The notes beneath the pieces are model-generated. The model saw only the letters and a program-made list of their open reading frames with translations, ran no database searches and had not been told where the DNA came from. Below, piece by piece: positions 1,397 through 31,018 of a stretch of DNA of 41,930 bases. The stretch comes from Sulfuricaulis sp. Lineage in GTDB: Bacteria > Pseudomonadota > Gammaproteobacteria > Acidiferrobacterales > Sulfurifustaceae. The DNA lies in the NCBI GenBank assembly GCA_024654125.1, contig JANLIC010000281.1:1-41930 (forward strand), written 5' to 3'. The position numbers were made by a program, and so were the translations under genes. The stretch's first letter is position 1, and the number at the start of each line of letters is the position of its first letter.

Positions 1397-2578
1397 TTAA
1401 ATTTCTTCTATCACCCAACGGCCGCCGCGCTTGGCCAGTTCGCGGTCGCAACCGAACTCGGAGGCAGGCGATTTGTCTCCGGGGAGTCGCGCCACCACGC
1501 GCTCACCCTCACCGCGCAGGCGTACGATTTCACTCTGCAAGGCAATATCGTCGCCGCTCGGGGCGAGTACGCCCGTCAGGACAGAAGCTGGCGCGGTCGA
1601 GACTCGCAGCCATTGGCGCATATCCGCGCCGAAACCGGTGGCGGCACGGTCGCGTCCGAAGGCGCGACCGATGCCGTCATAGCGGCCGCCGCGCGCGAAA
1701 GCCTGTCCATGTCCCGGCACGAACGCGGAAAATACCACACCGGTATAGTAGTGATATCCGGAAAGCTCGGCCAAATCGAAATTCAATTCCGGCGCGCCGG
1801 CACGCTTAGTCACCAGGCTGGCAACCGCCTCCAACTCGTCGAGCGCGCGCATGACCGGCTTCGGCGCCTCACGCCATTGCTGGCGCGCGTGGGCCAACAC
1901 CTCCTGCCCGCCGCTGAAATCCAGCAGGCTGGCCAACATGCGCTTCGAACCCGCTGGCGCATCGATTCCCGCCAGCAGGGCCTTTACATCGCTGCTCGCC
2001 TTGCGTTGCAGCGCGTCAAACAGATCCCCTTCCTGCTCGGCGCTCAACTTAGCCTGGGCCGTCAGCCCGCGGAACACGCCGACGTGACCGAGATCGAAAT
2101 GCGCATCGCGGATATCCGCCAGGCGCAGCGCCTCGATCATGAGACCCAGTATTTCAGCGTCGGCTTCCGGGCCGGCGTGACCGAAGAGCTCGGCTCCGAG
2201 CTGCAGCGGCTCGCGCGAACCGCCGAAACCGTCCGGTTGCGTGCGCAACACCGAGCCCATGTAGCATAGGCGCGTCGGTGCGCCGCGCTTGAGGTAATGT
2301 GCGTCGATGCGTGCCGCCTGCGGCGTCATGTCCGGGCGCACGCCCATGAGACGTCCGGTCAGGTGATCCGTGAACTTGAACGTCTGCAAATCCAGGTCGC
2401 GGCTGGCGCCGATCAACAACGATTCCAGATACTCAATCAGCGGCGGCATCACGAATTCATAACCCCAGGAGACAAACAGGTCGAGCAGCCGGCGACGCAG
2501 AGTTTCCACGCGCCGGGCTTCGGCGGGCAGGATTTCTTCGACGCCATCGGGCAGCAGCCAGCGTTCTTTGTTTGACAT
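1397..2578 (-). CDS. hisZ: ATP phosphoribosyltransferase regulatory subunit (HisZ)
   Basis: MSNKERWLLPDGVEEILPAEARRVETLRRRLLDLFVSWGYEFVMPPLIEYLESLL...; HisRS-like fold motifs; sits next to purA. Confidence 0.93.
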   Translation of the reverse strand: MSNKERWLLPDGVEEILPAEARRVETLRRRLLDLFVSWGYEFVMPPLIEYLESLLIGASRDLDLQTFKFTDHLTGRLMGVRPDMTPQAARIDAHYLKRGAPTRLCYMGSVLRTQPDGFGGSREPLQLGAELFGHAGPEADAEILGLMIEALRLADIRDAHFDLGHVGVFRGLTAQAKLSAEQEGDLFDALQRKASSDVKALLAGIDAPAGSKRMLASLLDFSGGQEVLAHARQQWREAPKPVMRALDELEAVASLVTKRAGAPELNFDLAELSGYHYYTGVVFSAFVPGHGQAFARGGRYDGIGRAFGRDRAATGFGADMRQWLRVSTAPASVLTGVLAPSGDDIALQSEIVRLRGEGERVVARLPGDKSPASEFGCDRELAKRGGRWVIEEI

Positions 2579-2599
2579 GAATATACCGTTACAGATTGT

Positions 2600-2743
2600 T
2601 GAGGCCCCTGAAAAACAAGCGGTTTGGCTTTAGACGTGGCGCGGTGTCGTCGAGCAGCGCCGCGTACACGCCAGTACGTGAGCCGCGCAGACAAGCCGCA
2701 ACGAAGTATAAAGGCAAAGCGCGCAGTTTTTCAGGGGTCTCAG
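2600..2743. mobile_element. MITE-like element with terminal inverted repeats
   Basis: Left end tgaggcccctgaaaaac, right end gtttttcaggggtctca (16/17 inverted match), with further imperfect arm pairing; about 144 bp; no transposase ORF. Confidence 0.65.
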
Positions 2744-2932
2744 TTAGCGGTTGACGATGTACAGCAAAACCACACCGATCAGCATGCTGGTCAGGCCCGC
2801 GAAGCGCAGCTGAGAATCGCTCAGCTGGTGAACCGCCGTCAGGGCCTTGCGCACGCCGTCCGGGCTGAGAAAGGGTAAAACACCCTCCAGTATCAGCAGC
2901 AGCGCCAGCGCAATCCACAGTTCATGCCACAT
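2744..2932 (-). CDS. DUF2065 (YjeT-like) small membrane protein
   Basis: 62 aa MWHELWIALALLLILEGVLPFLSPDGVRKALTAVHQLSDSQLRFAGLTSMLIGVVLLYIVNR; located next to hflC. Confidence 0.85.
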   Translation of the reverse strand: MWHELWIALALLLILEGVLPFLSPDGVRKALTAVHQLSDSQLRFAGLTSMLIGVVLLYIVNR

Positions 2933-2953
2933 AGCCGGACCGGGCCATGGGGA

Positions 2954-3823
2954 CTAGCGGGTGGATTTCTTCATGTAGCGGAAGAAATCCGAGCTCGGGT
3001 CCACGATCAAGATATCTTCTTTACTCTTGAAGCTTTCCTTGTAGGCATTGAGGCTGCGATACAGTGAATAGAACTCGGGCGCGCGACTGTAGGCCTTGCC
3101 GTATATCTCAGTCGCCCTGGCGTCGCCTTCGCCACGGGTGCGCTCGGCCTTGCCATAGGCCTCGGCCAGCAGGATATCGCGCTGGCGTTCGGAATTCGAG
3201 CGGATCTTCTCGGCGGCTTCCGCGCCCTGCGCACGCAATTCATTGGCGATGCGCGAGCGCTCGGCCTTCATGCGCTGATAAACCGATTGACTGACCTCAG
3301 CCGGCAGGTCCACGCGCTGAATGCGTACGTCAACGACGACAATCCCGAATTTACGCGCCTCGCGGTCGGTGTTTTCGGTCAGAATCTCCATAATCTTGTG
3401 CCGGTCAGCGGAAATGACCTTCTGCACCTCGCGCTTGCCGAATTCATCGCGCAACCCGCTGTTGACGACCTGTTCCAGGCGCCGCCGGGCGTCCAATTCC
3501 TGGCCGCCGACCGTCAGATAATACTTGAGCGCGTCTTCGATACGCCATTTGACGAAAGAATCCACCACCACATATTTCTTTTCCTTGGTCAGGAACGGCT
3601 GTGGGTCCGCATCCAGGGTCAGTATGCGCGAATCGAAAAAGCGCGCCTCGTCGAGAAACGGCGTCTTGAAGTGCAGGCCCGGCACATCATCGAAGCGCAG
3701 CACCTGGCCGAAGCGGACGATGATGACTTTTTCCCGCTCGTCCACCATATAAACGGCGGACTTCGCCGTAATAAATACCAGCAAAAGAATACCGAGCAGC
3801 GCGAGCAATTTGGTCTGGTTCAT
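2954..3823 (-). CDS. hflC: Protease modulator HflC (SPFH/band 7)
   Basis: MNQTKLLALLGILLLVFITAKSAVYMVDEREKVIIVRFGQV...; paired with hflK. Confidence 0.94.
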   Translation of the reverse strand: MNQTKLLALLGILLLVFITAKSAVYMVDEREKVIIVRFGQVLRFDDVPGLHFKTPFLDEARFFDSRILTLDADPQPFLTKEKKYVVVDSFVKWRIEDALKYYLTVGGQELDARRRLEQVVNSGLRDEFGKREVQKVISADRHKIMEILTENTDREARKFGIVVVDVRIQRVDLPAEVSQSVYQRMKAERSRIANELRAQGAEAAEKIRSNSERQRDILLAEAYGKAERTRGEGDARATEIYGKAYSRAPEFYSLYRSLNAYKESFKSKEDILIVDPSSDFFRYMKKSTR

Positions 3824-5031
3824 GGCGTCCCCCGCGTGCGCAGATCGGAACGGCCACGGTTGGCGCCAGCTTTCGCCGCTTCAGCCGCTGTCGCGTCGGC
3901 CTCCGTGAGCGGCGGAACAAACGGCACCGTGGCGGCCGCCGGGCCCATCGGCACGAGCCTGTCAAGCGGCAGATAAATCAAATTGTTGCCGGCTTTCTGG
4001 TCTATGAATATCGTGGTGGTGCTGGACAATACCTGCTCCATGGTTTCCAGGTACAGGCGCTCACGTGTCACGTTGGGCGCCTTCATGTATTCGTTGGCGA
4101 TCTGACTGAACCGGCGTGCATCGCCGTCGGCGCGCGCAATCACGCTCGCCTTGTAGCCTTCGGCTTCCTGTATCAGGCGCGCGGCGCCGCCGCGCGCGCG
4201 CGGGATGACATCGTTCGCGTAGGCCTCGGCCTCGTTCTTCAGACGCTGCTCGTCTTCACGCGCCTTCACGGCGTCGTCAAACGCCGGCTTGACCTCATCC
4301 GGGGGTTGCGCCTTCTGGGTTTCCACCGTCACGATGTGCACGCCGATCTTGTAACGGTCCAGTATCTGCTGCAACAAATCGCGCGCACTGCGCGACACCT
4401 GATCGCGCCCTTCGGTCAGGGCGAAATCCAGCGTGCTTTTGCCGACCACCTCGCGCACCGCCGATTCGGTGGCCTGGCCGATGGTGGTTTCGACGTCGCG
4501 AACATTGAAGAGATAATCGGCGGCGTCCTTGATCTTGTATTGCACGGCAAATTCGATGTCGATGATGTTTTCGTCTTCCGTCAGCATCAGGGCTTCCTTC
4601 GGCACCTTGGTCTTGCCGCCGCTGCGCGCATTGCTGCGGTAGCCGATCTCGATGTTGGACACCTTTTCCACGTTGACCTTCTCGACGCTCTCCAGGGGCA
4701 TCGGCAGGTGCCAGCGCAGGCCGGCCTCAGTGATCTCCGCTTGCTTGCCGAAACGCAGCACGACACCACGCTCGCCCTGATTGACGATGTAAAAACCGGT
4801 GAGCAGCCAGACACCCAGTGCGACCACGACGATCAGGCCGAAACTGAATCCGCTGGCGCGGCCTCCTCCCGTCCCACCGCCTCCCCCGCCGAACAGGCCG
4901 CCAAACAGGCCGGCGAACTTCTGCTGGATGTTCTTTACGATGCGGTCGATGTCCGGTCCGCCAGCGCCGGGTTTGCGGCGCTGACTCCACGGATCTTTAT
5001 CGCCGGACTTGCCGGGTTCATTCCATGCCAT
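3820..5031 (-). CDS. hflK: Protease modulator HflK
   Basis: MAWNEPGKSGDKDPWSQRRKPGAGGPDID... Gly-rich N-terminus and SPFH domain; start overlaps hflC. Confidence 0.94.
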   Translation of the reverse strand: MAWNEPGKSGDKDPWSQRRKPGAGGPDIDRIVKNIQQKFAGLFGGLFGGGGGGTGGGRASGFSFGLIVVVALGVWLLTGFYIVNQGERGVVLRFGKQAEITEAGLRWHLPMPLESVEKVNVEKVSNIEIGYRSNARSGGKTKVPKEALMLTEDENIIDIEFAVQYKIKDAADYLFNVRDVETTIGQATESAVREVVGKSTLDFALTEGRDQVSRSARDLLQQILDRYKIGVHIVTVETQKAQPPDEVKPAFDDAVKAREDEQRLKNEAEAYANDVIPRARGGAARLIQEAEGYKASVIARADGDARRFSQIANEYMKAPNVTRERLYLETMEQVLSSTTTIFIDQKAGNNLIYLPLDRLVPMGPAAATVPFVPPLTEADATAAEAAKAGANRGRSDLRTRGTP

Positions 5032-5087
5032 GATTTATCTCTAGGGCTGATATTGCGCGATATTCCACAAAGAGCGGCATTTTAGGG

Positions 5088-6401
5088 TCAGGACCCGGTA
5101 GGAGCAAGAACGGATTCGTTCTCCGAAATCATAAATGACTCGCGAAAATCGCGCTGCTGCCGCAACCAGGCGAATTGGGCGGGTTCCAGTGCCAGGTCGA
5201 GCACCCAGCCGCCGGACTCCAGTGCCGTTTCTCGCATGACATCGAAGCGGTCATACAGGGCGGCGCGCAGGCGTCCAGCCTCGGGCGGAAGAATCAGGCG
5301 GTGGTGCTGCCGTTGGAGGCGAAAATGATCCGCCAGTGCCAGCAACAACAGGTCCATGCCCGCGCCGGTGCGCGCCGAAACCCACACACGCAGGATCTTC
5401 CCGCCGGCATCGCGCTCGAAACGCGGCGCTTCGCCGGTCACATCGATCTTGTTGAACACCGTGATTTGCGGGATCGAAAGCGCGTTGATTTCGGCGAGCA
5501 CATTGTTCACCTGCCGAATCTGCTCGAGCCGATCGGGACTGGCAGCATCCACGACGTGCAGCAGTACATCCGCCTCGGCCACCTCCTCCAACGTCGATTT
5601 GAAAGCCGCCACCAGGTCGTGCGGCAGCCGTCGGATGAAACCGACGGTATCGCCGAGAATCACCGAGGCCTTGCCCGGGAGTTCGATGCGCCGCATGGTG
5701 GGGTCGAGCGTGGCGAACAACTGGTCGGCCGCATACACGGTGGCAGAAGTCAGCCGGTTGAACAGCGATGACTTGCCGGCGTTGGTGTAACCGACCAGGG
5801 AAACCGTGGGGATGGGTACCTTGTGCCGCGCCCGGCGCCGGCTGCGGCGCTGGACGGTCACCTGTTCCAGGCGTTCGTTAAGTTTCTTGATGCGGTCACG
5901 AATCAGGCGGCGGTCCACTTCCAGCTGCGTTTCGCCGGGACCGCGCAAGCCGATACCACCTTTTTGCCGTCCCAAGTGAGTCCAGCCTCGTACCAGGCGC
6001 GTGGACAAGTGCTCGAGCTGGGCCAGTTCGACCTGCAATTTGCCTTCGGCGGAGTGCGCACGCTGGGCAAAGATATCCAGGATCAAGCCGGTGCGGTCCA
6101 GCACGCGGCAACAGGTGATCTTTTCGAGATTGCGTTCTTGGGCGGGAGATAGATCGTGGTTGACGAGTACTAAATCAGCGTGCTCGCGCGCCACGGCATC
6201 CCGGATTTCTTCGGCTTTGCCCTTGCCCACGAAAGTTGCTGCATCTGGCACTTGCCGGCTACCCAAAATAGTTCCGCAGACCTCCGCGCCAGCGGATACT
6301 GCCAACAAGCGCAATTCCTCCAACGCCTCCGGTTCAAGCCGTCCCGACAGACGCAACTGCACCAGCAGGGCGCGTTCTCGCACCCCGGATGCCGTTGTCA
6401 T
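5088..6401 (-). CDS. hflX: Ribosome-associated GTPase HflX
   Basis: G1 motif GYTNAGKSSLFN, DTVGFIRRLPHDLVAAFKSTLEE, NKID; located between hfq and hflK. Confidence 0.94.
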   Translation of the reverse strand: MTTASGVRERALLVQLRLSGRLEPEALEELRLLAVSAGAEVCGTILGSRQVPDAATFVGKGKAEEIRDAVAREHADLVLVNHDLSPAQERNLEKITCCRVLDRTGLILDIFAQRAHSAEGKLQVELAQLEHLSTRLVRGWTHLGRQKGGIGLRGPGETQLEVDRRLIRDRIKKLNERLEQVTVQRRSRRRARHKVPIPTVSLVGYTNAGKSSLFNRLTSATVYAADQLFATLDPTMRRIELPGKASVILGDTVGFIRRLPHDLVAAFKSTLEEVAEADVLLHVVDAASPDRLEQIRQVNNVLAEINALSIPQITVFNKIDVTGEAPRFERDAGGKILRVWVSARTGAGMDLLLLALADHFRLQRQHHRLILPPEAGRLRAALYDRFDVMRETALESGGWVLDLALEPAQFAWLRQQRDFRESFMISENESVLAPTGS

Positions 6402-6408
6402 GGCAGGA

Positions 6409-6678
6409 TTATTCGTTTCCAGGGCCCTTCGAAGTGTCGATGGCTTCCATACCCTCGATATGAAATTTCACCGGACGACTGGGCACCACCGTGGAGATGG
6501 CGTGTTTGTAAATCATCTGGCTCACGGAATTCTTGAGCAGTACCACAAACTGATCGAAGGACTCGATCTGTCCCTGCAATTTGATGCCGTTGACCAGAAA
6601 GATGGATACGGGGACATGTTCCTTGCGTAAAACGTTAAGGAAAGGGTCTTGTAGTGCTTGCCCTTTTTGTTGGCTCAT
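6409..6678 (-). CDS. hfq: RNA chaperone Hfq
   Basis: [70 protein letters not shown], canonical Sm1/Sm2 motifs. Confidence 0.97.
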
Positions 6679-6766
6679 GACAGTTCTCCTGTTCTTATGT
6701 TCGTCGTGCCTTGCGGCATTTTTGGTTGTCCGGTCTCAATCCTGACCGGTTAGTAATAGTATAACC

Positions 6767-7717
6767 TCAGACCGAACCCTGTTGACGGATCATTACCCTT
6801 AAATAGTCCTGACTTTCACTCAACGGGATCGAATTACTGCTGTCAAAGGCCTTTAATTCAGGATAACTGCGCAGCCAGGTGATCTGTCGCTTGGCAAATT
6901 GGCGCGTCGCTGCCAGCGCCTGCTCGATCATTTCACTATAGTTGATCTTTGCGGTCAAGTATTCCCATATCTGCCGATATCCCACGGTACGAATCGACGG
7001 CATCGAAGCTTTGAGATCGCCGCGTGCATAAAGTTTCTCAACCTCCGGCAAAAACCCCTGTTCGAGCATGGCGTGGAAACGCTGCTCAATTCGAGCGTGC
7101 AATGGCGCCCTGTCCTGCGGCCATAACGCAATTTTTATAAGACGATATGGCAGTGAAACTCGATGTTTTGCGGAGGCCAGTTCGCTCAAAGACTGGCCGG
7201 TGAGTTCGTAAATTTCCAGTGCACGCTGGATGCGCTGGGCATCGTTCGGATGGATTCGTTTCGCGGATTGAGCATCAACTTCCTTGAGCCTCCGATGCAA
7301 TTCTTCCCAGCCCTTCCGCGCAGCCTCGGCACTCAAGCGTTCGCGGATTTCAGGATCGGCGGACGGCAGGTCGGAAAGCCCGAATTCCAGCGCATGAAAA
7401 TAGAACATGGTACCGCCAACCAATAGCGGTATTTTACCGGCGCGCGTGATGGCCTCCATCTCGCGCGCGGCATCAGTACAGAATTCCGCTGCGGAATAGG
7501 CTTGCGCCGGGTCGCGGATATCGATCAAACGATGTGGCGCACGTGCCTGTTCTGCGGTCGTCGGTTTGGCGGTGCCAATGTCCAAGCCGCGATACACCTG
7601 CGAGGAATCGACGCTGATGATTTTCACCGGAAACGCGTCGTGCAACTCAAGCGCAAGCGCGGTCTTCCCCCCCGCTGTCGGGCCCATCAGAAAAATAGCG
7701 GGGGGATGATCGGCCAT
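6767..7717 (-). CDS. miaA: tRNA dimethylallyltransferase MiaA
   Basis: [18 protein letters not shown]-loop, [19 protein letters not shown]; upstream of hfq in the usual order. Confidence 0.95.
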
Positions 7718-7730
7718 AAATAATTACTTT

Positions 7731-7811
7731 AACCGCAGATGAACGCAGATAAAAACAAATATAGATTCTTCTTTTAAATTTTAACTTCTATCTGCACTTA
7801 TCTGCGGTTCC
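7731..7811. repeat. Family A intergenic inverted repeat
   Basis: aaccgcagatgaacgcagataaaaac ... tatctgcacttatctgcggttc. Confidence 0.85.
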
Positions 7812-7817
7812 AGAATA

Positions 7818-9314
7818 TTAGCCTTTTGACTCTGGTCGCATGTGCGGGAACAGGAGCACATCGCGGATTGAAGGTGAATCGGTGAGCAACATCACCAACC
7901 GATCGATGCCGATACCCTCGCCCGCCGTCGGCGGCATGCCGTGTTCCAGCGCGCGGATGTAGTCTTCGTCGAAATGCATGGCCTCTTCGTCGCCGGCTTC
8001 CTTTTCCGCCACCTGCTTGCGGAAGCGCTCGGCCTGATCCTCGGCGTCGTTCAGCTCGGAGAACCCGTTGGCAATTTCGCGACCGCCGACGAAAAATTCG
8101 AAACGATCGGTGATGGCGGGGTCTTTGTCATTGCGGCGTGCCAGCGGCGAAACTTCCGTCGGATAGGAAGTGATGAAGGTCGGGTCTTTCAGTTTGGCCT
8201 CGACCGTTTTCTCGAAAATTTCCAGTTGCAGCTTGCCGGTTCCATAGCTTGGCTTCACCGCGATTTCCATGCTCCCGGCAATCTTGCGCAAGGCCTCCAC
8301 CGAATTCAGCTCAGAATCTTTCAGCTCTGTGTTGAATTGCAGAATAGATTCCTTCATCGTCATGCGGCGAAAACGCTTACTGAAATCGTACTGCTCGCCC
8401 TGGTAGGTAATGGTTTCACTGCCCAGCACTTCTTTGGCGAGTCCGCGCATCATCTTTTCCGTGAGGTTCATCAGGTCCTGGTAGTCGGCAAAGGCCTGAT
8501 AGAACTCGAGCATGGTGAATTCCGGATTGTGGCGCGTGGACAGGCCCTCGTTGCGGAAATTGCGGTTGATCTCGTAGACTTTCTCAATGCCGCCGACGAT
8601 CAGGCGCTTGAGATACAGCTCCGGCGCCACGCGCAGGTACAGCCCCATGTCGAGCGCGTGATGGTGGGTCACGAACGGGCGCGCCGCCGCGCCGCCCGGG
8701 ATCGCCTGCATCATTGGGGTTTCGACCTCGAGATAGCCACGCGTATCCAGGAAATTTCGGATATACCGGATAATGGCGGTGCGCGTACCGAAGGTCTTGC
8801 GCACCACTTCGTTCATGATGAGATCGAGATAGCGCTGGCGGTACCGGGTCTCAGTATCCGTCAGGCCGTGGAATTTCTCCGGCAGCGGCCGCAAAGCCTT
8901 GGCCAGCAGTCGCACACTGTCCACCTTGACCGACAGTTCGCCGGTTTTGGTTTTGAAAAGCCCCCCCTCGGCGCCGACGATGTCGCCAATGTCCCATTTC
9001 TTGAACTCCTCGTAGATCTGCTCGCCCACGGAATCAAGCTTTACATAAAGCTGAATACGTCCGGACATGTCCTGCAGGTCGCAGAAACTCGATTTGCCGT
9101 GCCCGCGACGCGTCATCATTCGCCCGGCCACCTTGACCCGGACTTTGCGGGTTTCGATTTCGGCCGGATCCTTTTCGCCGTATTCGGCGTGCAGCTCGCC
9201 GGCGATGACGTTGCGCCGGAAATCGTTGGGGAAGGCATTGCCCAGCTGGCGCCACTCGGCGAGTTTGGAACGCCGCTGAGCGATCTGTTCGTTCTCGTCT
9301 AGGTCGTCAGACAT
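7818..9314 (-). CDS. lysS: Lysyl-tRNA synthetase, class II
   Basis: Class II aaRS motifs ([55 protein letters not shown]). Confidence 0.96.
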
Positions 9315-17383: not shown

Positions 17384-18058
17384 ATGATGCTGCGTCTCCC
17401 TGCCGTCCTCGACCCAAATCAGCTCGACACCGTGCGCCAGCTGCTGGCCGATGCGAAATTCGTGGACGGGAAACTTTCCGCCGGGCAGGCGGCCCAACGC
17501 GTCAAGCACAATCAGGAACTGGACAAGGGCACCAAGCAGATGGACCTGCTGAACAATCTCGTCATGGGCGCGCTGGTGCAGCACCCCGTATACCGCGCCG
17601 GAGCCCTGCCCCTGCGCGTGGCCTCCCCCTATTACGCACGCTACAAACCGAGCATGGCTTACGGGGCTCATCTGGACGATCCGATCATGGGAAACAATGG
17701 CGAGCTGTACCGCTCGGACATCGCCATCACGGTTTTCCTGAATGAACCGGATCAGTACGACGGCGGCGAACTGGTGATCCGCACCGCCTTCGGCGACAAC
17801 ACAGTCAAATTCGCCGCCGGTGATGGCGTGATGTATCCCGCTTCCAGTCTGCATCACGTGAACAATGTCACGCGCGGTGAACGCCTCGTAGCCGTGACCT
17901 GGGTGCAGAGCTTGGTGCGCGATCCGGCGCGGCGCGAGCTGTTGTACGATTTGCATCTGGCGCGGGAAAAACTGCTCAAGGTTTCACCCGACGCGGAGGA
18001 AACCGCGCAGGTCAACGCCGCCTACATGAACCTGATCCGCATGTGGGGCGATATGTAG
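17384..18058 (+). CDS. PKHD-type Fe2+-dependent hydroxylase (PiuC/YbiX-like)
   Basis: MLRLPAVLDPNQLDTVRQLLADAKFVDGKLSAG...; YGAHLDDPIM (HxD), YPASSLHHVNNVTRGERLVAVTWVQSLVRD. Confidence 0.92.
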   Translation: MMLRLPAVLDPNQLDTVRQLLADAKFVDGKLSAGQAAQRVKHNQELDKGTKQMDLLNNLVMGALVQHPVYRAGALPLRVASPYYARYKPSMAYGAHLDDPIMGNNGELYRSDIAITVFLNEPDQYDGGELVIRTAFGDNTVKFAAGDGVMYPASSLHHVNNVTRGERLVAVTWVQSLVRDPARRELLYDLHLAREKLLKVSPDAEETAQVNAAYMNLIRMWGDM

Positions 18059-22204: not shown

Positions 22205-23065
22205 TTAAAACTCGCCATTGGCCACCGGGCGTGTCGGGTCGGTGATCCACTCGCTCCAGCTGCCGGCATACAATTTTGCGCCTGAAAGCCCGGCGTGTTC
22301 CATCGCGAGGATGCTATGGCAGGCGGTCACACCCGACCCGCACATGTGCACGACTTTATCCGGCGGCACCTTGTCCAGCAGCGATAAATAATGCTCGCGC
22401 AAGGCTTCATCAGACATGAATTCGCTGGTGATGTCGAGATTGTCTTCATAAGGCATATTGTTTGCGCCGGGAATATGACCCGCCACCTTGTCGAGCGGCT
22501 CAACCTCGCCGCGAAAACGCTCCTCCGCGCGCGCGTCGATCAGAAGCCCTTCCTTGGCGCGCGTCATTTCCAATACATGATCGGCGTCAACCCACAGCGC
22601 GTTATTTATCGTCGGATGGAATTGCGTTGCCTTGATCTCGGACAATTCGGTCGTGACCGGCCGCTTTTCCCGTATCCACTTCTGGTAACCGGCATCGAGC
22701 ACCGCCACGGCTTCATGTCCGAGCCAACGCAGCAGCCACCACAGACGTGCCGCCATGGCGCCAAAGGAATCGTCGTACACGACCACCTGGCTGTTTTTAT
22801 CGATGCCCCAGCGGCCGAGTTTTTCCGCCAGCGTATTGGGGAAGGGAAGCGGATGCCGGCCACTGCCGGGCGTGATGGGAGAGGACAGATCCTCGCTGAG
22901 ATGTGCATAGCGCGCGCCGGGGATGTGTCCCGCTTCATAGGCACGCCGCCCGGCTTCCGGGTCGGTCAGGACGAAGCGGCAATCCACCACCACCCAGCGC
23001 GGGTCGCCCAAATGCCGGGACAGTGTTTCCGTATCGACGAGGGTGGTGAGCATGGCTGTCAGCAC
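22205..23065 (-). CDS. Sulfurtransferase (two-domain rhodanese/mercaptopyruvate sulfurtransferase-like)
   Basis: VDCRFVLTDPEAGRRAYEAGHIPGARYAHL...VVYDDSFGAMAARLWWLLRWLGH...HMCGSGVTACHSILAMEHAGL (active-site Cys loop CGSGVTA). Confidence 0.92.
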   Translation of the reverse strand: MLTAMLTTLVDTETLSRHLGDPRWVVVDCRFVLTDPEAGRRAYEAGHIPGARYAHLSEDLSSPITPGSGRHPLPFPNTLAEKLGRWGIDKNSQVVVYDDSFGAMAARLWWLLRWLGHEAVAVLDAGYQKWIREKRPVTTELSEIKATQFHPTINNALWVDADHVLEMTRAKEGLLIDARAEERFRGEVEPLDKVAGHIPGANNMPYEDNLDITSEFMSDEALREHYLSLLDKVPPDKVVHMCGSGVTACHSILAMEHAGLSGAKLYAGSWSEWITDPTRPVANGEF

Positions 23066-23133: not shown

Positions 23134-23472
23134 CTAATAGCCGCCCTTGCGTCGCGATTCGGGCAGGCCGGCGATGCGTCCGCCCTGCTTGCTCGGGTCC
23201 TTCGGGAACAGATCGTAAATATCCTTCTGGCTGGCATTGGTGCCCCACTTGTCCGACATCGCCTTCACAATATGGCGGGTGTTGGGCTGCTCGCCACCGT
23301 GATTGAAGTACATATCCCGCAAGTAGTCGATGAGATCCCAATGCTTTGGCGTCAATGAAATTCCCTCCAGCTGGGCAATATGTTCAGCCAGTTCCTTGCT
23401 CCAGTCTTCGGTGCTGGTGAGGAATCCGTTGGCATCGGTATCGATGGTCTTGCCATTAAACTCATAACTCAT
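23134..23472 (-). CDS. DsrC/TusE superfamily protein lacking C-terminal cysteines
   Basis: MSYEFNGKTIDTDANGFLTSTEDWSKELAEHIAQLEGISLTPKHWDLIDYLRDMYFNHGGEQPNTRHIVKAMSDKWGTNASQKDIYDLFPKDPSKQGGRIAGLPESRRKGGY; aligns along its length with DsrC (30686) but has no Cys. Confidence 0.93.
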   Translation of the reverse strand: MSYEFNGKTIDTDANGFLTSTEDWSKELAEHIAQLEGISLTPKHWDLIDYLRDMYFNHGGEQPNTRHIVKAMSDKWGTNASQKDIYDLFPKDPSKQGGRIAGLPESRRKGGY

Positions 23473-23663: not shown

Positions 23664-23746
23664 ATGAGGCGGCAAGAAGATTTCATACCAAAGCCACGGC
23701 GGTTGCATCCGAACAGACACAACCAGGTTCCTGCATGCCGCCTCAT
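23664..23746. repeat. Long inverted repeat, 11-bp perfect arms, with nested stem
   Basis: atgaggcggca (23664-23674) / tgccgcctcat (23736-23746); nested ggttg (23701-23705) / caacc (23720-23724). Ends at the stop codon of the Cas6-like gene. Confidence 0.65.
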
Positions 23747-24429
23747 CAATCCAAAACGGGCCGGACTTCATGGATATCCTTGTGCGGCAGAAACAGCCCG
23801 CATCCCAGCGTCCGCCCCGGGCCCAAACCCCGCTGTTGGACCCTGACCGACTCCTCCACGTCCAGGTCCGCCAGCATCAGGCTGCGTGTATGGATTTTCC
23901 TGTCGGGCGTGGTGATGACACGCTCTATGCCGCAGAGCATCTTTTTCGGATGGACTCCGATATCAGCCAGCAGCGCCTGTGCCTCGCGCATGAAAACCGT
24001 TTCGTCCAGTCCTTCACTGGCGACGATGTAGCGCGAGAAAAGTGTCGTAAGCGTGCTGAGCGGCTTGACCACGGCCTTGTCCACCAGCATCGAGTTACCG
24101 TCGATACTCAGCGTTTGCCCGGTCAGTATGCCGGCATCCTCGATACGTTGCTTGGGCAGGCGCAACATGAGCTTGGTACGGCGCGACAGGTGCAGCAGGG
24201 CGTCGGGTTTATCCGGACGCATCCAGCCATTGCCGGATTCCGCACCGTGTATGGTATGAAGACCGGCAAGCGCTTCGTCCGCAAACCAGGGCAGTGCTTC
24301 GGAGACGGCCTGCGATAACGCGTAGGAATGATCCACCGGCAGGGTACGGCACTGGATGCTGAAAACCACATCCACGATATCGTCCGGGACGTTATAATTT
24401 TCATTCTCTTTGGCTTCTTGCCAGTACAT
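23746..24429 (-). CDS. Cas6/Cmx6-like protein (type I-MYXAN CRISPR-associated family), orphan
   Basis: MYWQEAKENENYNVPDDIVDVVFSIQCRTLPVDHSYALSQAVSEALPWFADEALAGLHTIHGAESGNGWMRP...LHLSRRTKLMLRLPKQRIEDAGILTGQTL...IHTRSLMLADLDVEESVRVQQRGLGPGRTLGCGLFLPHKDI; C-terminal Gly-rich loop as in Cas6. Start trimmed to MYWQ (24429) instead of the longer ORF. Confidence 0.78.
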   Translation of the reverse strand: MYWQEAKENENYNVPDDIVDVVFSIQCRTLPVDHSYALSQAVSEALPWFADEALAGLHTIHGAESGNGWMRPDKPDALLHLSRRTKLMLRLPKQRIEDAGILTGQTLSIDGNSMLVDKAVVKPLSTLTTLFSRYIVASEGLDETVFMREAQALLADIGVHPKKMLCGIERVITTPDRKIHTRSLMLADLDVEESVRVQQRGLGPGRTLGCGLFLPHKDIHEVRPVLD

Positions 24430-24439
24430 GTCCGTGTTG

Positions 24440-25147
24440 TCAGTTAACCGGGAGTTTCTCGCGTATGGCGTCGCGGTCGATCCACCACTCCTCCTGCACC
24501 AGCACGTCCACCACATTGCGCAGGCGTGGCAGGAATTTCGCAGGATCGTCGAGTTCGAGTTTCTTGAACCAGCGGCTGAACGCCTCCTGGTCGTGTGCGT
24601 CGCTGTGGCGTCGCGCCACCGTCGCCAAGAGCTGGTTGCTGTAGAACATCAGGTCTTCGCGCTGGCGCCCCTCGGCGCGCAGGTCCACGAGATAATGCGC
24701 CACGGTCGCCGCCACCGCGGCACCATCGGACTCCGGCGGAGTTTCGTCCACCACATGCTGCAACATGGCCACCGAAAGTTCGGGGTCCATGGGAAAGGTG
24801 ACTGTCAGCCAGATACCTTGCCCAAGCGCCGCGAGCGATTCCGGCTGATCCGACAGGAACATGATGTCGCAGGCCTGCACCGCACCCTCCCAGGCCTCGC
24901 GCGCCAAGTAAATATCGAAGGCCTCACGGCCGGCGTCCCAGGCGTCCTCGTTTTTCTCCAGACGGATGAGCGTGCGGCCAATCTGCAGCAGAAGATCGGC
25001 GCGTGCCGGCGGATCATAATTGGGCGGCAGCTCCAGCATCTGGCGTCTGAATTCCGCCAGCTGGGCTTCGAGCAGGACGGAAGATTCCTGGGTGTCTTCC
25101 GCACTGTCCATGTCGGTCTTGAAGCTTTCGTCTTTGAGATATTTCAT
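24440..25147 (-). CDS. Conserved hypothetical protein, 235 aa, upstream of the Cas6-like gene
   Basis: MKYLKDESFKTDMDSAEDTQESSVLLEAQLAEFRRQMLELPPNYDPPARADLLLQIGRTLIRLEKNEDAWDAGREAFDIYLAREAWEGAVQACDIMFLSDQPESLAALGQGIWL...; 10-bp gap to next gene. Confidence 0.8.
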   Translation of the reverse strand: MKYLKDESFKTDMDSAEDTQESSVLLEAQLAEFRRQMLELPPNYDPPARADLLLQIGRTLIRLEKNEDAWDAGREAFDIYLAREAWEGAVQACDIMFLSDQPESLAALGQGIWLTVTFPMDPELSVAMLQHVVDETPPESDGAAVAATVAHYLVDLRAEGRQREDLMFYSNQLLATVARRHSDAHDQEAFSRWFKKLELDDPAKFLPRLRNVVDVLVQEEWWIDRDAIREKLPVN

Positions 25148-25268: not shown

Positions 25269-25466
25269 TTATTTAGTCACCGAATGGATTCCGACAAAGG
25301 CGCCTTCCAGTTGATCCTCCCAGTTAGCGGGCGTGTCCGGATATGTCGGTTTGATGTCGATGCGGAAAAACATTTCCGTCTGCGCCCGCTGGCGCACCAC
25401 TTCCAGCAGTTGTTCGAACGTCATGATGTCATGATGCTGAAGCAGGATTTCGCTCAGATGCAACAT
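25269..25466 (-). CDS. Small hypothetical protein, 65 aa
   Basis: MLHLSEILLQHHDIMTFEQLLEVVRQRAQTEMFFRIDIKPTYPDTPANWEDQLEGAFVGIHSVTK; protein-like composition, same strand as neighbours. Confidence 0.55.
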   Translation of the reverse strand: MLHLSEILLQHHDIMTFEQLLEVVRQRAQTEMFFRIDIKPTYPDTPANWEDQLEGAFVGIHSVTK

Positions 25467-25642: not shown

Positions 25643-26587
25643 CTATCCATACATCTCGCTTAGATTTGTTCCTGCAATGCGGTCATGATAGCGTGCCCGA
25701 TATATCAGTCTTGCGATTCCCTTGTCCACATCATCCGTAAACGCGGTGCGGTTATGCAGCACATTGTTGCAGAGCAGACCCTGGTTGGCACTCAGCGTAT
25801 GGCGAAAAATATATGGGGATTCGCCGGCCAGCAGTTTTTCGAAAAACTTCACGGCCTCCAGCGTGTCAGCATCCTGTTTCCACGCGATGGAACGCGTGCG
25901 CGCGGTATAGCGCATATGCAGGTTTCCGCCGACCGGATCGACGGAAAAAACCGGCCCGGTCACGGCCGCACGGGTTTCCAGTCCGGCTTCCGCGTTGGGC
26001 GGGATCGTCATGGCATCCGGCGCCATCAACGCCCGCACATGGTCCGGATTGGCGTCGCGCATCAGGATATAGGCGATCTCATGGTCCAGCAGACTGTTTT
26101 GCCCGCCTTCCGCAGCCGGCGACACACAGTGCAACACGAAGGCGCGCAGACGCGCCTCGCTGCCATGGTAATAACCGTCCGTGTGCCACAGCAGGCGATT
26201 GTTGGAGTAAGGAATGTATCCGCGCTGAGACTTTCCCGGCACCACCTGCAAGGACGTGATGCCGTCATCATCGGCCAGCAAGTTGCTGTCGAGGCGGCTG
26301 AGACCGAAGCGCGCACCCACGGCACGCGGGATTTCCTTGTCTTCCCGACCTGTCTGGCCCGTGTAGATGACCATGTTGGTCTTACGACAGACTTTCAGCA
26401 TGTTGCTCGCCTCGACGTCGGTCAGTGCCAGAGGGTTGGCAACTTCCACCATCAGTGCCTCTGCGGAAACGGGATAGGCATTCAGTTTCGCCTCGCGCCA
26501 GCGGCGATAGGCTGCTTGGTTTTGCAGACTGAAAGGACTGCCCTCGGGCGCATCACTGGCACGATTAAGGTTGACGGGATTCTTCAA
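25643..26587 (-). CDS. TauD/TfdA-family dioxygenase
   Basis: RLLWHTDGYYHGSEARLRAFVLHCVSPAAEGGQNSLLDHEIAYI (HxD), later LCNNVLHNRTAF (distal His), RLIYRARYHDR. Confidence 0.82.
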   Translation of the reverse strand: MKNPVNLNRASDAPEGSPFSLQNQAAYRRWREAKLNAYPVSAEALMVEVANPLALTDVEASNMLKVCRKTNMVIYTGQTGREDKEIPRAVGARFGLSRLDSNLLADDDGITSLQVVPGKSQRGYIPYSNNRLLWHTDGYYHGSEARLRAFVLHCVSPAAEGGQNSLLDHEIAYILMRDANPDHVRALMAPDAMTIPPNAEAGLETRAAVTGPVFSVDPVGGNLHMRYTARTRSIAWKQDADTLEAVKFFEKLLAGESPYIFRHTLSANQGLLCNNVLHNRTAFTDDVDKGIARLIYRARYHDRIAGTNLSEMYG

Positions 26588-26721
26588 TGCTTAAAATCCT
26601 GATTGTCTGAAAGAGTGATATGGGGGCACGCGAGAATTATTAAATAAAAAACGCTGGCGATCTCGACCTTGGGCAAAACAGAACTGCTGGGAAGACAATA
26701 GTATTTTAAATCAAATAGTTG

Positions 26722-26727
26722 TATAAT
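26722..26727 (+). promoter_or_regulatory. Possible -10 element (TATAAT) of the dsr promoter
   Basis: aaatagttgtataatcaatgg in the divergent region before dsrA; no clear -35 at the expected spacing. Confidence 0.3.
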
Positions 26728-26764
26728 CAATGGCGCTACGCGGGTGCTTTTCGGCACTTTCTTA

Positions 26765-26784
26765 TATCCCTTTCGGGAGGGATA
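26765..26784 (+). promoter_or_regulatory. Hairpin in the dsrA 5' leader
   Basis: tatccct-ttcggg-agggata, perfect 7-bp stem; preceded by small stem gtgc(26744-26747)/gcac(26754-26757). Confidence 0.5.
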
Positions 26785-26944
26785 AACCAGTGAAGGCTCT
26801 CTCTAACGTATGATTTTCTTATTGAAAGTCCTGATTAGACTGAACCTTGGCAAAAACTTGTTAGGCAGAAATGCTGAACCTTTCGGCGCGACTTTCGCCC
26901 GGAAGGCCGATTTTATATCCTTCTACGCGCAGGAGGTAGATTAA

Positions 26945-28258
26945 ATGGCCCAGAAGCAACCGAAGAATCCGGATAAACATTCGACCTTTATTCCGAAGGA
27001 TAAAAAATCCACCAAGCCGTTCCATAAAACGCCCATGCTGGACCAGCTGGAAAGCGGTCCGTGGCCGAGTTTCGTGACCGGGCTCAAGCGCCTGGCGCAC
27101 GACAACAACATGATGGTCGACTTGATGGGTCAGCTCGAATACTCCTACACTACCCGCAAAGGCTACTGGAAAGGCGGAACGGTTTCGGTATTCGGCTACG
27201 GTGGCGGCATCATTCCACGCTTCACCGAACTGATGGGGAGCGACGGCAAAGCCATGTTCCCCGCCTCGAAAGAGTTCCACACACTCCGCGTACAGCCGCC
27301 CGCGGGCAACCACTACACCACCCAAATGCTGCGTCAGTTGTCCGACTCCTGGAAGAAATGGGGTTCGGGCCTGATCGCGTTCCACGGCCAAACCGGCAAT
27401 ATCATGTTCATCGGTTCTTCCAGCGAAAACACGCAGCACTTCTTCGACGAAATCAACGGGTATGGTTTCGACCTCGGCGGCGCCGGTCCGTGCGTGCGCA
27501 CCGCCATGTCGTGCGTGGGCGCGGCGCGTTGCGAACAGTCGAACGCCAACGAGCAGAAAATTCACCGCACGCTGGTGAACAACTTCATCGACGACATGCA
27601 CCGCCCGGCACTGCCGTATAAATTCAAGTTCAAGGTCTCGGGCTGCCCGAACGACTGCATGAACTCAATCCAGCGCGCCGACTTCGCGGTCATCGGCACC
27701 TGGCGCGACGACATGAAGGTCAATCAGAAGGAAATCAAAGCCTTCATTAAGAGCAAGAGCCGCAAATATGTCATCGACAACGTCGTCAACCGCTGCCCGA
27801 CCAAGGCGCTGTCGCTGAACGACGATGACACGCTGGACGTGGACAACCGCAATTGCGTGCGCTGCATGCACTGCATCAACGTCATGACCAAGGCACTCAA
27901 GCCCGGCGATGACAAGGGCATCACCCTGCTCATCGGCGGCAAGCGCACCCTGAAGATCGGCGACACCTTCGGCACCGTCATCATTCCGTTCATGAAGCTC
28001 GATACCGACGCGGATTACGAGCGGATTCGCGAGATTGCCGCCAACACCATCGACTTCTGGGCGGAAAACGGTCTGGAACACGAACGCTGCGGCGAGATGA
28101 TCGAACGTATCGGCCTCGTGAACTTCCTCGAAGGCATCGGCCTCGAGGTGGATCCGAACATGATCAACCACCCGCGCACCAGCTCCTACGTCCGCTTGGA
28201 CGAGTGGGATCAGGAAGCCGAGAAGTGGAAGAACCGCAAGCAGCAGGCGGCGGGCTGA
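26945..28258 (+). CDS. dsrA: Dissimilatory sulfite reductase alpha subunit (oxidative type)
   Basis: MAQKQPKNPDKHSTFIPKDKKSTKPFHKTPMLDQLESGPWPSFVTGLKRLA...; CSGCPNDC-like KVSGCPNDCMNS and ferredoxin CVRCMHC motifs; RBS aggagg at 26930. Confidence 0.97.
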   Translation: MAQKQPKNPDKHSTFIPKDKKSTKPFHKTPMLDQLESGPWPSFVTGLKRLAHDNNMMVDLMGQLEYSYTTRKGYWKGGTVSVFGYGGGIIPRFTELMGSDGKAMFPASKEFHTLRVQPPAGNHYTTQMLRQLSDSWKKWGSGLIAFHGQTGNIMFIGSSSENTQHFFDEINGYGFDLGGAGPCVRTAMSCVGAARCEQSNANEQKIHRTLVNNFIDDMHRPALPYKFKFKVSGCPNDCMNSIQRADFAVIGTWRDDMKVNQKEIKAFIKSKSRKYVIDNVVNRCPTKALSLNDDDTLDVDNRNCVRCMHCINVMTKALKPGDDKGITLLIGGKRTLKIGDTFGTVIIPFMKLDTDADYERIREIAANTIDFWAENGLEHERCGEMIERIGLVNFLEGIGLEVDPNMINHPRTSSYVRLDEWDQEAEKWKNRKQQAAG

Positions 28259-28280
28259 TCACGCCTTAGCGACATAAAAC

Positions 28281-28309
28281 GGGTCCGCAGCCGTCAGCCG
28301 GGCGGGCCC
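28281..28309 (+). promoter_or_regulatory. Intercistronic hairpin between dsrA and dsrB
   Basis: gggtccgc-agccgtcagccgg-gcgggccc, 8-bp stem with one GU. Confidence 0.5.
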
Positions 28310-28351
28310 CACCTCTAAACACGACATGTAACAGGCTTTGGAGAGATAAAG

Positions 28352-29446
28352 ATGGCGCAAGCAACTACCGAGAAAGCAGCGACCCCGCGCTCACCGATCG
28401 AGTCCGGGTGCCCTGACGGCTTTCAGTACATGCATCCGCTAATGATCAAGAACTACGGGAACTGGGCGTATCATGACCGTCCGCGCCCGGGCGTGCTGCA
28501 CCACGTCGCCAAGAGCGGTGACGAGATCTGGACCGTGCGCGTTGGCACCCAGCGCCAGCTCGGCCCGTACGAAATCAACCTGTTGTGCGACATCATCGAC
28601 AAGTACGGCGAAGGTTTCGTGCGCTTCACCATCCGCTCGAACATGGAGATCATGGTCTCGAGCTGGGGCAAAGTCGAACCGCTGATCCAGGCCATGAACG
28701 ACGCCGGCTACCCGGTCGGCGGCACCGGCAACTCGGTGACCATGATTTCCCACACTCAGGGCTGGCTGCATTGCGACATCCCCGGCACCGACGCCTCGGG
28801 CGTGGTCAAGGCGCTGATGGACGACCTGCATGACGAGTTCATCAAGGAAGACATGCCGAACCGCGTGCACATCACCACCTCCTGCTGCCAGATCAACTGC
28901 GGCGGCCAGGGCGACATCGCCATCAACGTGCAGCACACCAAGCCGCCCAAGATCAACCACGATCTCGTGGCCAATGTGTGCGAGCGCCCGTCGGTGGTGG
29001 CACGCTGCCCGGTGGCGGCGATCCGCCCGGCCATGGTGAACGGCAAGCCGTCGCTCGAAGTCGACGAGAAAAAGTGCATCTGCTGCGGTGCCTGCTTCCC
29101 GCCCTGCCCACCGATGCAGATCAACGATCCCGAACATTCAAAACTCGCCATCTGGGTCGGTGGTAAGAACTCGAATGCCCGTTCCAAGCCGATGTTCCAC
29201 AAACTCGTGGCCGCCGGGGTTCCAAACAATCCGCCGCGCTGGCCGGAAGCAGGCGAGATCGTCAAGAAAATTCTGCGCGTCTACAAGCAAGACGCCAAAG
29301 ACTGGGAGCGCGTGGGAGACTGGGTCGAGCGCATCGGTTGGCCGCGATTCTTTGAACTGACGGAACTGCCGTTCACCAAGTTCCACATCGACAACTGGCG
29401 CGGCTCACGGCACATGCTGAACCAGTCGGCACACATCCGTTTCTAG
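28352..29446 (+). CDS. dsrB: Dissimilatory sulfite reductase beta subunit
   Basis: PIESGCPDGFQYMHPLMIKNYGNWAYHDRPRPGVLHHVAKSGDEIWTVRVGTQRQ...; TTSCCQINCGG, CICCGACFPPCPPM. Confidence 0.97.
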   Translation: MAQATTEKAATPRSPIESGCPDGFQYMHPLMIKNYGNWAYHDRPRPGVLHHVAKSGDEIWTVRVGTQRQLGPYEINLLCDIIDKYGEGFVRFTIRSNMEIMVSSWGKVEPLIQAMNDAGYPVGGTGNSVTMISHTQGWLHCDIPGTDASGVVKALMDDLHDEFIKEDMPNRVHITTSCCQINCGGQGDIAINVQHTKPPKINHDLVANVCERPSVVARCPVAAIRPAMVNGKPSLEVDEKKCICCGACFPPCPPMQINDPEHSKLAIWVGGKNSNARSKPMFHKLVAAGVPNNPPRWPEAGEIVKKILRVYKQDAKDWERVGDWVERIGWPRFFELTELPFTKFHIDNWRGSRHMLNQSAHIRF

Positions 29447-29547: not shown

Positions 29548-29907
29548 ATGAAGCTGGGTATCATGATCAATGAGGGTCCGTATACGCATCAAGCGTCGGA
29601 TACGGCTTATCTGTTTGCCAAAGCCGCGATCGAGAAAGGACACAAGATTCACCGTGTGTTCTTCTATCACGACGGCGTCTACAACGCGAACCGGCATGCC
29701 GAGCCGCCGCAGGACGACCGTAATATCGTCAATCGCTGGCAGAAGCTGGCCAAGGATCACCACGTCGATCTGGTGGTCTGCGTGGCGGCGGCGCTCCGCC
29801 GGGGCATCAAGGACGAAAATTTGCAGGAAGGTTTCCGCATTTCCGGCCTGGGCCAGTTGATCGAGACGGGAATCCAGTCGGACAGGATGGTGACCTTTGG
29901 CGATTAA
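29548..29907 (+). CDS. dsrE: Sulfurtransferase DsrE (DsrE2EFH complex/TusD-like)
   Basis: MKLGIMINEGPYTHQASDTAYLFAKAAIEKGHKIHRVFFYHDGVYNAN...; conserved Cys in DLVVCVAAALRRGI. Confidence 0.94.
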   Translation: MKLGIMINEGPYTHQASDTAYLFAKAAIEKGHKIHRVFFYHDGVYNANRHAEPPQDDRNIVNRWQKLAKDHHVDLVVCVAAALRRGIKDENLQEGFRISGLGQLIETGIQSDRMVTFGD

Positions 29908-29931
29908 TCCGGAACCATTGAGGGGAGTAAA

Positions 29932-30339
29932 ATGACCGAAGCAACGGGCGGCATTGAGATGGAAGAAGGTGTGGGCGGCAAGGTTAAAAAATTTCTGTAC
30001 GTGAACCGCAAGGCGCCGTACGGAACTATTTATGCCCTGGAATCTCTGGAGGTGGTGCTGATCGCGGCGGCATTCGATCAGGACGTGAGTCTGGCGTTCC
30101 TGGACGATGGCGTATATCAAATTGTCAAGGGCCAGCACACGAAACCGATCGACGTCAAGAATTTTTCGCCGGCGTATCGCGCACTGGAAGGCTATGACAT
30201 CGAGAAACTTTTCGTGGAAAAGGAATCCATGGAAGCCCGCGGCCTGAAAGAAGAGGACTTCATCGTTCCCGTGAAGGTTATCGGCACGCAGGAAATGACG
30301 GACCTCATGCAATCGCAAGACGTAATTTTGAGCTTTTAG
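29932..30339 (+). CDS. dsrF: DsrF (TusC-like)
   Basis: KKFLYVNRKAPYGTIYALESLEVVLIAAAFDQDVSLAFLDDGVYQIVKGQ. Confidence 0.94.
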   Translation: MTEATGGIEMEEGVGGKVKKFLYVNRKAPYGTIYALESLEVVLIAAAFDQDVSLAFLDDGVYQIVKGQHTKPIDVKNFSPAYRALEGYDIEKLFVEKESMEARGLKEEDFIVPVKVIGTQEMTDLMQSQDVILSF

Positions 30340-30685: not shown

Positions 30686-31018
30686 ATGCCTATCACCGTA
30701 GCGGGTAAAACCGTTGAAACCGACGAAGAAGGATATCTCGCCAACCGTACCGATTGGAGCGAGGAAATCGCCAAGGAAATGGCCAAGGTCGACAACTGCG
30801 ACCTGTCGCAGAATCACTGGGAAGTCATCAATTTCCTGCGTCAATATTATGATGAATACCAGATCGCGCCCGCGGTGCGCGTGTTGACCAAGGCTATCGG
30901 CAAGAAGCTCGGCCCGGACAAGGGCAACAGCAAGTACCTGTACGAGCTGTTCCCGTACGGCCCAGCCAAGCAGGCGTGCAAATACGCCGGCCTGCCCAAG
31001 CCGACCGGCTGCGTCTAA
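30686..31018 (+). CDS. dsrC: DsrC with both C-terminal cysteines
   Basis: MPITVAGKTVETDEEGYLANRTDWSEEIAKEMAKVDNCDLSQNHWEVINFLRQYY...GPAKQACKYAGLPKPTGCV. Confidence 0.97.
   Translation: MPITVAGKTVETDEEGYLANRTDWSEEIAKEMAKVDNCDLSQNHWEVINFLRQYYDEYQIAPAVRVLTKAIGKKLGPDKGNSKYLYELFPYGPAKQACKYAGLPKPTGCV

Follow-up and report, generated by a model that had tools for sequence, protein, structure and literature searches.

The 41,930-nt window, which is the whole stretch of DNA analysed here, encodes a 227-aa Cas6-like protein within an accessory module of the oxidative Dsr pathway, a module that co-occurs with dsrA and adjoins it. The Cas6 family normally comprises enzymes that cut CRISPR RNA, while the dsr operon is a main route of biological sulfur oxidation. 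That this protein is linked to dsr and not to CRISPR can be held with near certainty. The complete reading, in which a vertically kept, domesticated Cas6-fold protein serves as a Dsr accessory in Gammaproteobacteria (taken here to include betaproteobacterial lineages) and acts on RNA for Dsr-dependent oxidation, is given a probability of about 0.5.

Identity of the Cas6-like protein and its neighbours

The Cas6-like gene is located in a same-strand run formed by genes for a TauD-like dioxygenase, a small ORF of 65 aa, ORF235, the Cas6-like protein, a DsrC/TusE paralog and a rhodanese. The features of the region are the following:

25643-26587, minus strand: TauD/TfdA-like Fe(II)/2-oxoglutarate dioxygenase (PF02668), with the HxD...H residues H135, D137 and H278 invariant
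25269-25466, minus strand: conserved 65-aa small ORF (MLHLSEILLQHHDIMTFEQLLEVV...), with a same-strand homolog upstream of the cas6-like gene in 72 of 80 loci
24440-25147, minus strand: ORF235, all-helical and TPR-like, present only with the Cas6-like gene (35/35 genomes)
23746-24429, minus strand: Cas6-like protein, 227 aa (PF09559/TIGR02807), with His34, Arg90, the loop GLGPxRxLGCG and the motif GxHxIHxAxSGNGWMRP (residues 56-72)
23134-23472, minus strand: DsrC/TusE paralog of the RspA type (PF04358), tail RKGGY, without the penultimate Cys
22205-23065, minus strand: two-domain rhodanese/3-mercaptopyruvate sulfurtransferase-like protein, attached in 23 of 80 loci
17384-18058, plus strand: PKHD-type 2OG-Fe(II) oxygenase, with a homolog in 53 of 80 loci

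The ORF of the Cas6-like gene begins MYWQEAKENENYN and contains GLGPGRTLGCGLFLPHK. Profile searches matched its product to the Cas6 family in Pfam (PF09559, E 8e-62) and to TIGR02807 in NCBIfam (E 1.2e-35; 123.3 bits, against a curated cut-off of 98.85 bits), and these matches are far beyond chance. An AlphaFold2 model built from 66 homologs (pLDDT 88.5) showed a predicted Cas6 fold with the Gly-rich loop; its best structural match was the Cas6 of a type I-B CAST complex (8fcj_B, TM 0.78, E 8e-17), and the next ones were other Cas6 and Cas6e structures. Profile and predicted fold thus both agree with the original prediction, which had assigned the protein to the Cas6/Cmx6 family, proposed the structural comparison and offered to abandon the assignment if neither matched. 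The gene is also where it had been placed, starting 10 bp after a 235-aa ORF and upstream of the DsrC/TusE paralog; its strand, which had not been given, is minus. The NCBI equivalog TIGR02807 labels the dsr-linked proteins "type I-MYXAN CRISPR-associated protein Cas6/Cmx6", and the members in L144 and L154 also score above its cut-off, so that this name alone is no evidence of a CRISPR system. The Cas6-like ORF at 1474-2361 of L145 carries an additional N-terminal stretch of about 80 residues.

Neighbourhoods were counted in 80 loci from genomes of other species, where the dioxygenase was found within 4 kb of the Cas6-like gene in 68, the DsrC paralog in 69, ORF235 in 51 and the rhodanese in 23. 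The dioxygenase belongs to the TauD/TfdA family both by its PF02668 match and by its iron triad, which is intact in 26 of 26 aligned members. Nearly all copies of the DsrC paralog have the tail RKGGY, and the penultimate sulfur-accepting Cys that marks DsrC/TusE sulfur carriers is absent from the copy in the window and from every aligned one; the paralog has the same DsrC fold without C-terminal Cys as those of the RspA type, RspA being the name of such Cys-less forms in the DsrC-family literature. ORF235 matched no named family in the profile search. Its identification as Cas11 was rejected, the profile matches being weak (10/49 members, best E 4e-4; Pfam Cse2 E 0.016) and the nearest fold being TPR. 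A conserved RNA in the gap between tauD and orf235 was likewise ruled out, the conserved stretch being the coding small ORF. The sulfur-gene surroundings described originally stand, with three elements that had been overlooked: the divergent dsrA, the small ORF at 25269-25466 and the loss of Cys in the DsrC paralog. Between 12530 and 18058 of the window, other genes also recur near the dsr/Cas6-like region, namely a further 2OG-Fe oxygenase (30/80 loci), a DUF6866 protein (29/80) and an unnamed 197-aa protein (25/80), a homolog of which lies behind the DsrC paralog in L143 and L145.

The composition of this run would also suit a module that modifies tRNA or rRNA. Here the Cas6-like protein would be the RNA-holding part and the TauD-like oxygenase the hydroxylating enzyme, and the link to sulfur supply would come from the DsrC/TusE-type protein and the rhodanese. 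TusE acts in 2-thiouridine synthesis, and an Fe/2OG oxygenase with an intact HxD...H triad, a TusE-fold protein and an RNA-binding fold are indeed united in one operon-like run, with a sulfurtransferase in some loci. However, the DsrC-type protein lacks the sulfur-carrying Cys in every aligned copy, and the module tracks dsrA, whereas general tRNA thiolation would extend to relatives without dsr, which makes this modification role unlikely.

Conserved residues and phylogeny

Alignment revealed that His34 and Arg90 are kept in all 109 dsr-linked proteins and the Gly-Cys-Gly loop in 108 of them; His34 is also found in all 6 CRISPR-linked members, and Arg90 and the GxG...GCGxF loop are likewise common to both groups. 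In the model, His34 lies behind the first strand, where helix 1 begins, the site of the catalytic His in other Cas6 enzymes. The nearest solved Cas6, that of the type I-B CAST transposon (PDB 8fcj, 8fcu), belongs to a CRISPR-guided transposon complex and carries Asn at this position, and thus His34 of the dsr-linked protein is catalytic by position only. Together, the fold and the conserved His suggest that the Cas6-like protein binds or processes RNA.

Compared with the Cas6 of type I-MYXAN and I-B systems (Cmx6), the dsr-linked protein has the fold, His34, Arg90 and the Gly-rich loop GLGxxRxLGCGxF in common, with an identity of 23-27% to the CRISPR-linked cyanobacterial members, but it lies beside dsr, without cas neighbours or an array. 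It is further set apart by an additional invariant motif around SGNGWMRP and by R84 and R182: W69, R71, S82 and R84 are present in 109/109 dsr-linked proteins and R182 in 108/109, R84 also occurring in one CRISPR-linked member. A quick tree placed the dsr-linked proteins on one side of a branch, opposite the CRISPR-linked Cas6, with a support of 95; three betaproteobacterial proteins had long branches and their placement is unsure. Distances among the Cas6-like proteins correlate with those of DsrA (r 0.70) and of ORF235 (r 0.80), and inheritance of the gene is mostly vertical.

An alternative is that the Cas6 fold has lost its RNA role and now works as a scaffold or assembly factor that binds proteins, for instance aiding the oxygenase in hydroxylating DsrAB or DsrC, or keeping hold of the DsrC paralog without Cys. 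This would account for the frequent pairing with a DsrC-fold protein and for the new invariant positions that lie outside the set common to Cas6 (W69, R71, S82, R84 and nearly always R182). Two features that serve RNA in Cas6, the His position and the Gly-rich loop, are kept as strictly here as in the CRISPR-linked proteins, which argues against such a scaffold; we consider it rather improbable.

Association with dsrA and CRISPR context

The dsr genes start at 26945 and run in the direction opposite to the module, in the order dsrA, dsrB, dsrE, dsrF, dsrC, dsrM and dsrK. The features used here are:

26945-28258, plus strand: dsrA, reverse-acting dissimilatory sulfite reductase alpha
28352-29446, plus strand: dsrB
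29548-30339, plus strand: dsrE and dsrF
30686-31018, plus strand: canonical dsrC with C-terminal Cys (tail KPTGCV), in contrast to the Cys-less paralog

Among the 57 loci with at least 4 kb of upstream sequence, 49 have dsrA divergent upstream of the module. In a sample of 370 genomes spread over the families of the class, PF09559 and dsrA were both present in 124, PF09559 only in 5, dsrA only in 3 and neither in 238; dsrA thus occurs in 124 of 129 carriers and in 3 of 241 non-carriers (Fisher p 6.5e-88, a value that overstates the strength because genomes were treated as independent). In the same genomes, Cas1 is almost without association to the Cas6-like family (both 61, PF09559 only 68, Cas1 only 88, neither 153; p 0.046). 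The tabulation of the gene against dsr and cas that had been proposed as a check therefore showed it to be bound to dsrA and nearly independent of Cas1, and the suspected tie to sulfur metabolism turned out far stronger than proposed. As regards the carriers without dsrA, the gene is at or near a contig end in three (G165, G332 and G135), G317 has it on a 7.4-kb contig with a different gene arrangement, and G407 contains a true type I-MYXAN CRISPR locus with cas3, cmx8, cas7 and cas5.

An independent sample drawn from the phylum comprised 299 genomes, 4 of them carriers of PF09559, the genome of the window included; all 4 are of this class and have dsrA, and PF09559 was absent from all 32 genomes with dsrA that belong to other classes. 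In the other three carriers of the phylum sample (L143-L145), betaproteobacterium-like by our reading, the Cas6-like gene is the immediate neighbour of dsrA, and a DsrC paralog without Cys is again present (tail GKGGY). Relatives of the Cas6-like protein were encoded in 455 stretches when 85,462 species genomes were scanned. One family (f4, genus g14), including the closed genome G036, has dsrA and lacks the module, and in two other genomes of the family (G022 and G044) only the DsrC paralog is left, elsewhere in the genome. Since dsrA is present without the module in complete genomes of this family, Dsr can work without it, and the module is accessory and not strictly needed; that reduced genomes (1.0-1.6 Mb) have retained it argues that it is useful.

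Physical closeness keeps genes together for some time, and with mostly vertical inheritance an unrelated housekeeping gene could have hitchhiked beside dsr by chance. The link, however, spans families of the class and persists in strongly reduced genomes, and the sub-module cas6-rspA stays adjacent to dsrA in three otherwise different loci (L143-L145). Moreover, of 128 genomes of the class, 35 had ORF235, and each of these 35 carries PF09559; in many of them ORF235 is unlinked from the Cas6-like gene, lying 0.04-1 Mb away or on another contig. That the two genes occur together even where they are not linked is evidence that they share a function. Hitchhiking is accordingly very unlikely.

No direct-repeat array was detected across the 41,930-nt window, as had been stated for the 42 kb, and no Cas1 was detected in the genome itself (87.7% complete assembly), so that the complete type I-MYXAN locus that might have explained the gene away was not encountered there. 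Within the 80-locus neighbourhoods, the set that marks type I-MYXAN (cas3, cmx8, cas7, cas5, cas1, cas2) was not found beside the cas6-like gene. The true type I-MYXAN systems used for contrast were L111, L112, L114-L116 and L155, and only one true CRISPR locus was seen among the loci inspected in the class sample. Family and fold would allow the protein to be a functional CRISPR Cas6 that serves, in trans, arrays at other sites of the genome, and type I-MYXAN systems with the same Cas6 family exist, one of them in the class (L155). This reading is largely refuted by the counts, as 32 of 35 close carriers and the genome itself lack Cas1 and the family is bound to dsrA and nearly Cas1-independent in 370 genomes.

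The L155 locus (1500-9300: WYL-like regulator, cas6, cas3, cmx8, cas7, cas5) is of the same class and served as a control for the dsr-linked form. On a plasmid of Gloeobacter morelensis (L113, 7974-8762), a Cas6/Cmx6 homolog lies outside CRISPR, near a gene of the phosphoadenosine phosphosulfate reductase family and with a DNA methyltransferase further along; it may have been domesticated separately, in a defence-like locus.

Proposed role and candidate RNA targets

In the preferred reading, that of a domesticated Dsr accessory acting on RNA, the Cas6-like protein would recognise and bind a structured cellular RNA and would probably cut it by metal-independent Cas6 chemistry. This RNA step would determine how much of a transcript required for Dsr-dependent sulfur oxidation is present, or how that transcript is processed, and the TauD-like oxygenase and the DsrC paralog without Cys may act as partner or sensor. 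A wider proposal, in which a CRISPR RNA-processing enzyme was turned to RNA-level control of sulfur oxidation across Gammaproteobacteria, with a Cys-less DsrC sensor and an Fe/2OG oxygenase beside dsrAB, is put forward only tentatively. In Allochromatium vinosum, the DsrC-family paralog Alvin_1508, which may or may not be the paralog of the module, decreases about 7-fold on pyrite, alongside dsrE and dsrF (PMC11267869).

RNA targets were sought in the intergenic regions, among them:

26588-26944, no strand assigned: divergent promoter region between the module and dsrA, with an inverted-repeat variant TATCCC..GGGATA of longer spacer at 26765-26784 and TAGACT at 26836

An inverted repeat TATCYC-N4-GRGATA is perfect in 15 of 52 regions upstream of dsrA (L031-L109), against 0.0 expected, and lies about 110-270 bp before dsrA, often some 75 nt before the TAGACT box. 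Some of its mismatches are unfit for an RNA stem and near-matches occur in genomes without the module, and thus the repeat was rejected as a Cas6 substrate and read as DNA, probably the operator of an unnamed dsr regulator. The gap between dsrA and dsrB (28259-28351) forms a GC-rich hairpin in many loci, 43% of loci having z < -2; its stem sequences vary widely with pairing preserved, in this class and in others, and it is possibly an mRNA stability or attenuation element. Of 7 dsr loci from other classes, which lack Cas6, 5 also had strong hairpins. Neither element is therefore a specific target, each having failed the control with genomes without the module or Cas6, and these searches yielded no RNA target of the Cas6-like protein: the cas6-rspA gap and the dsrA and tauD leaders had little or no excess structure, and the Rfam search gave no match.

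The module resembles dsrR and dsrS of A. vinosum, which are also accessory genes of a dsr cluster with function unresolved (PMC3368242), but those are not the genes described here and are listed at the opposite end of the operon. In the open literature, as distinct from subscription journals, no description of a Cas6-dsr connection was found, nor, in the open literature, of a Cys-less DsrC paralog paired with a Cas6-fold protein. Cas6, Cys-less DsrC and dsr are each known, and it seems to be their fixed union, a Cas6-fold protein with an oxidative dsr locus, that is undescribed. Cas6 proteins are usually taken as a sign of CRISPR, a reading that the dsr-linked members break: their regular companionship with dsr genes in hundreds of species, with CRISPR or without, points to the recruitment of an RNA enzyme of immunity into energy metabolism. 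If the RNA role is true, this would be a clear case of such recruitment of a CRISPR enzyme, and it would offer a handle on a possible RNA-level control of the dsr operon.
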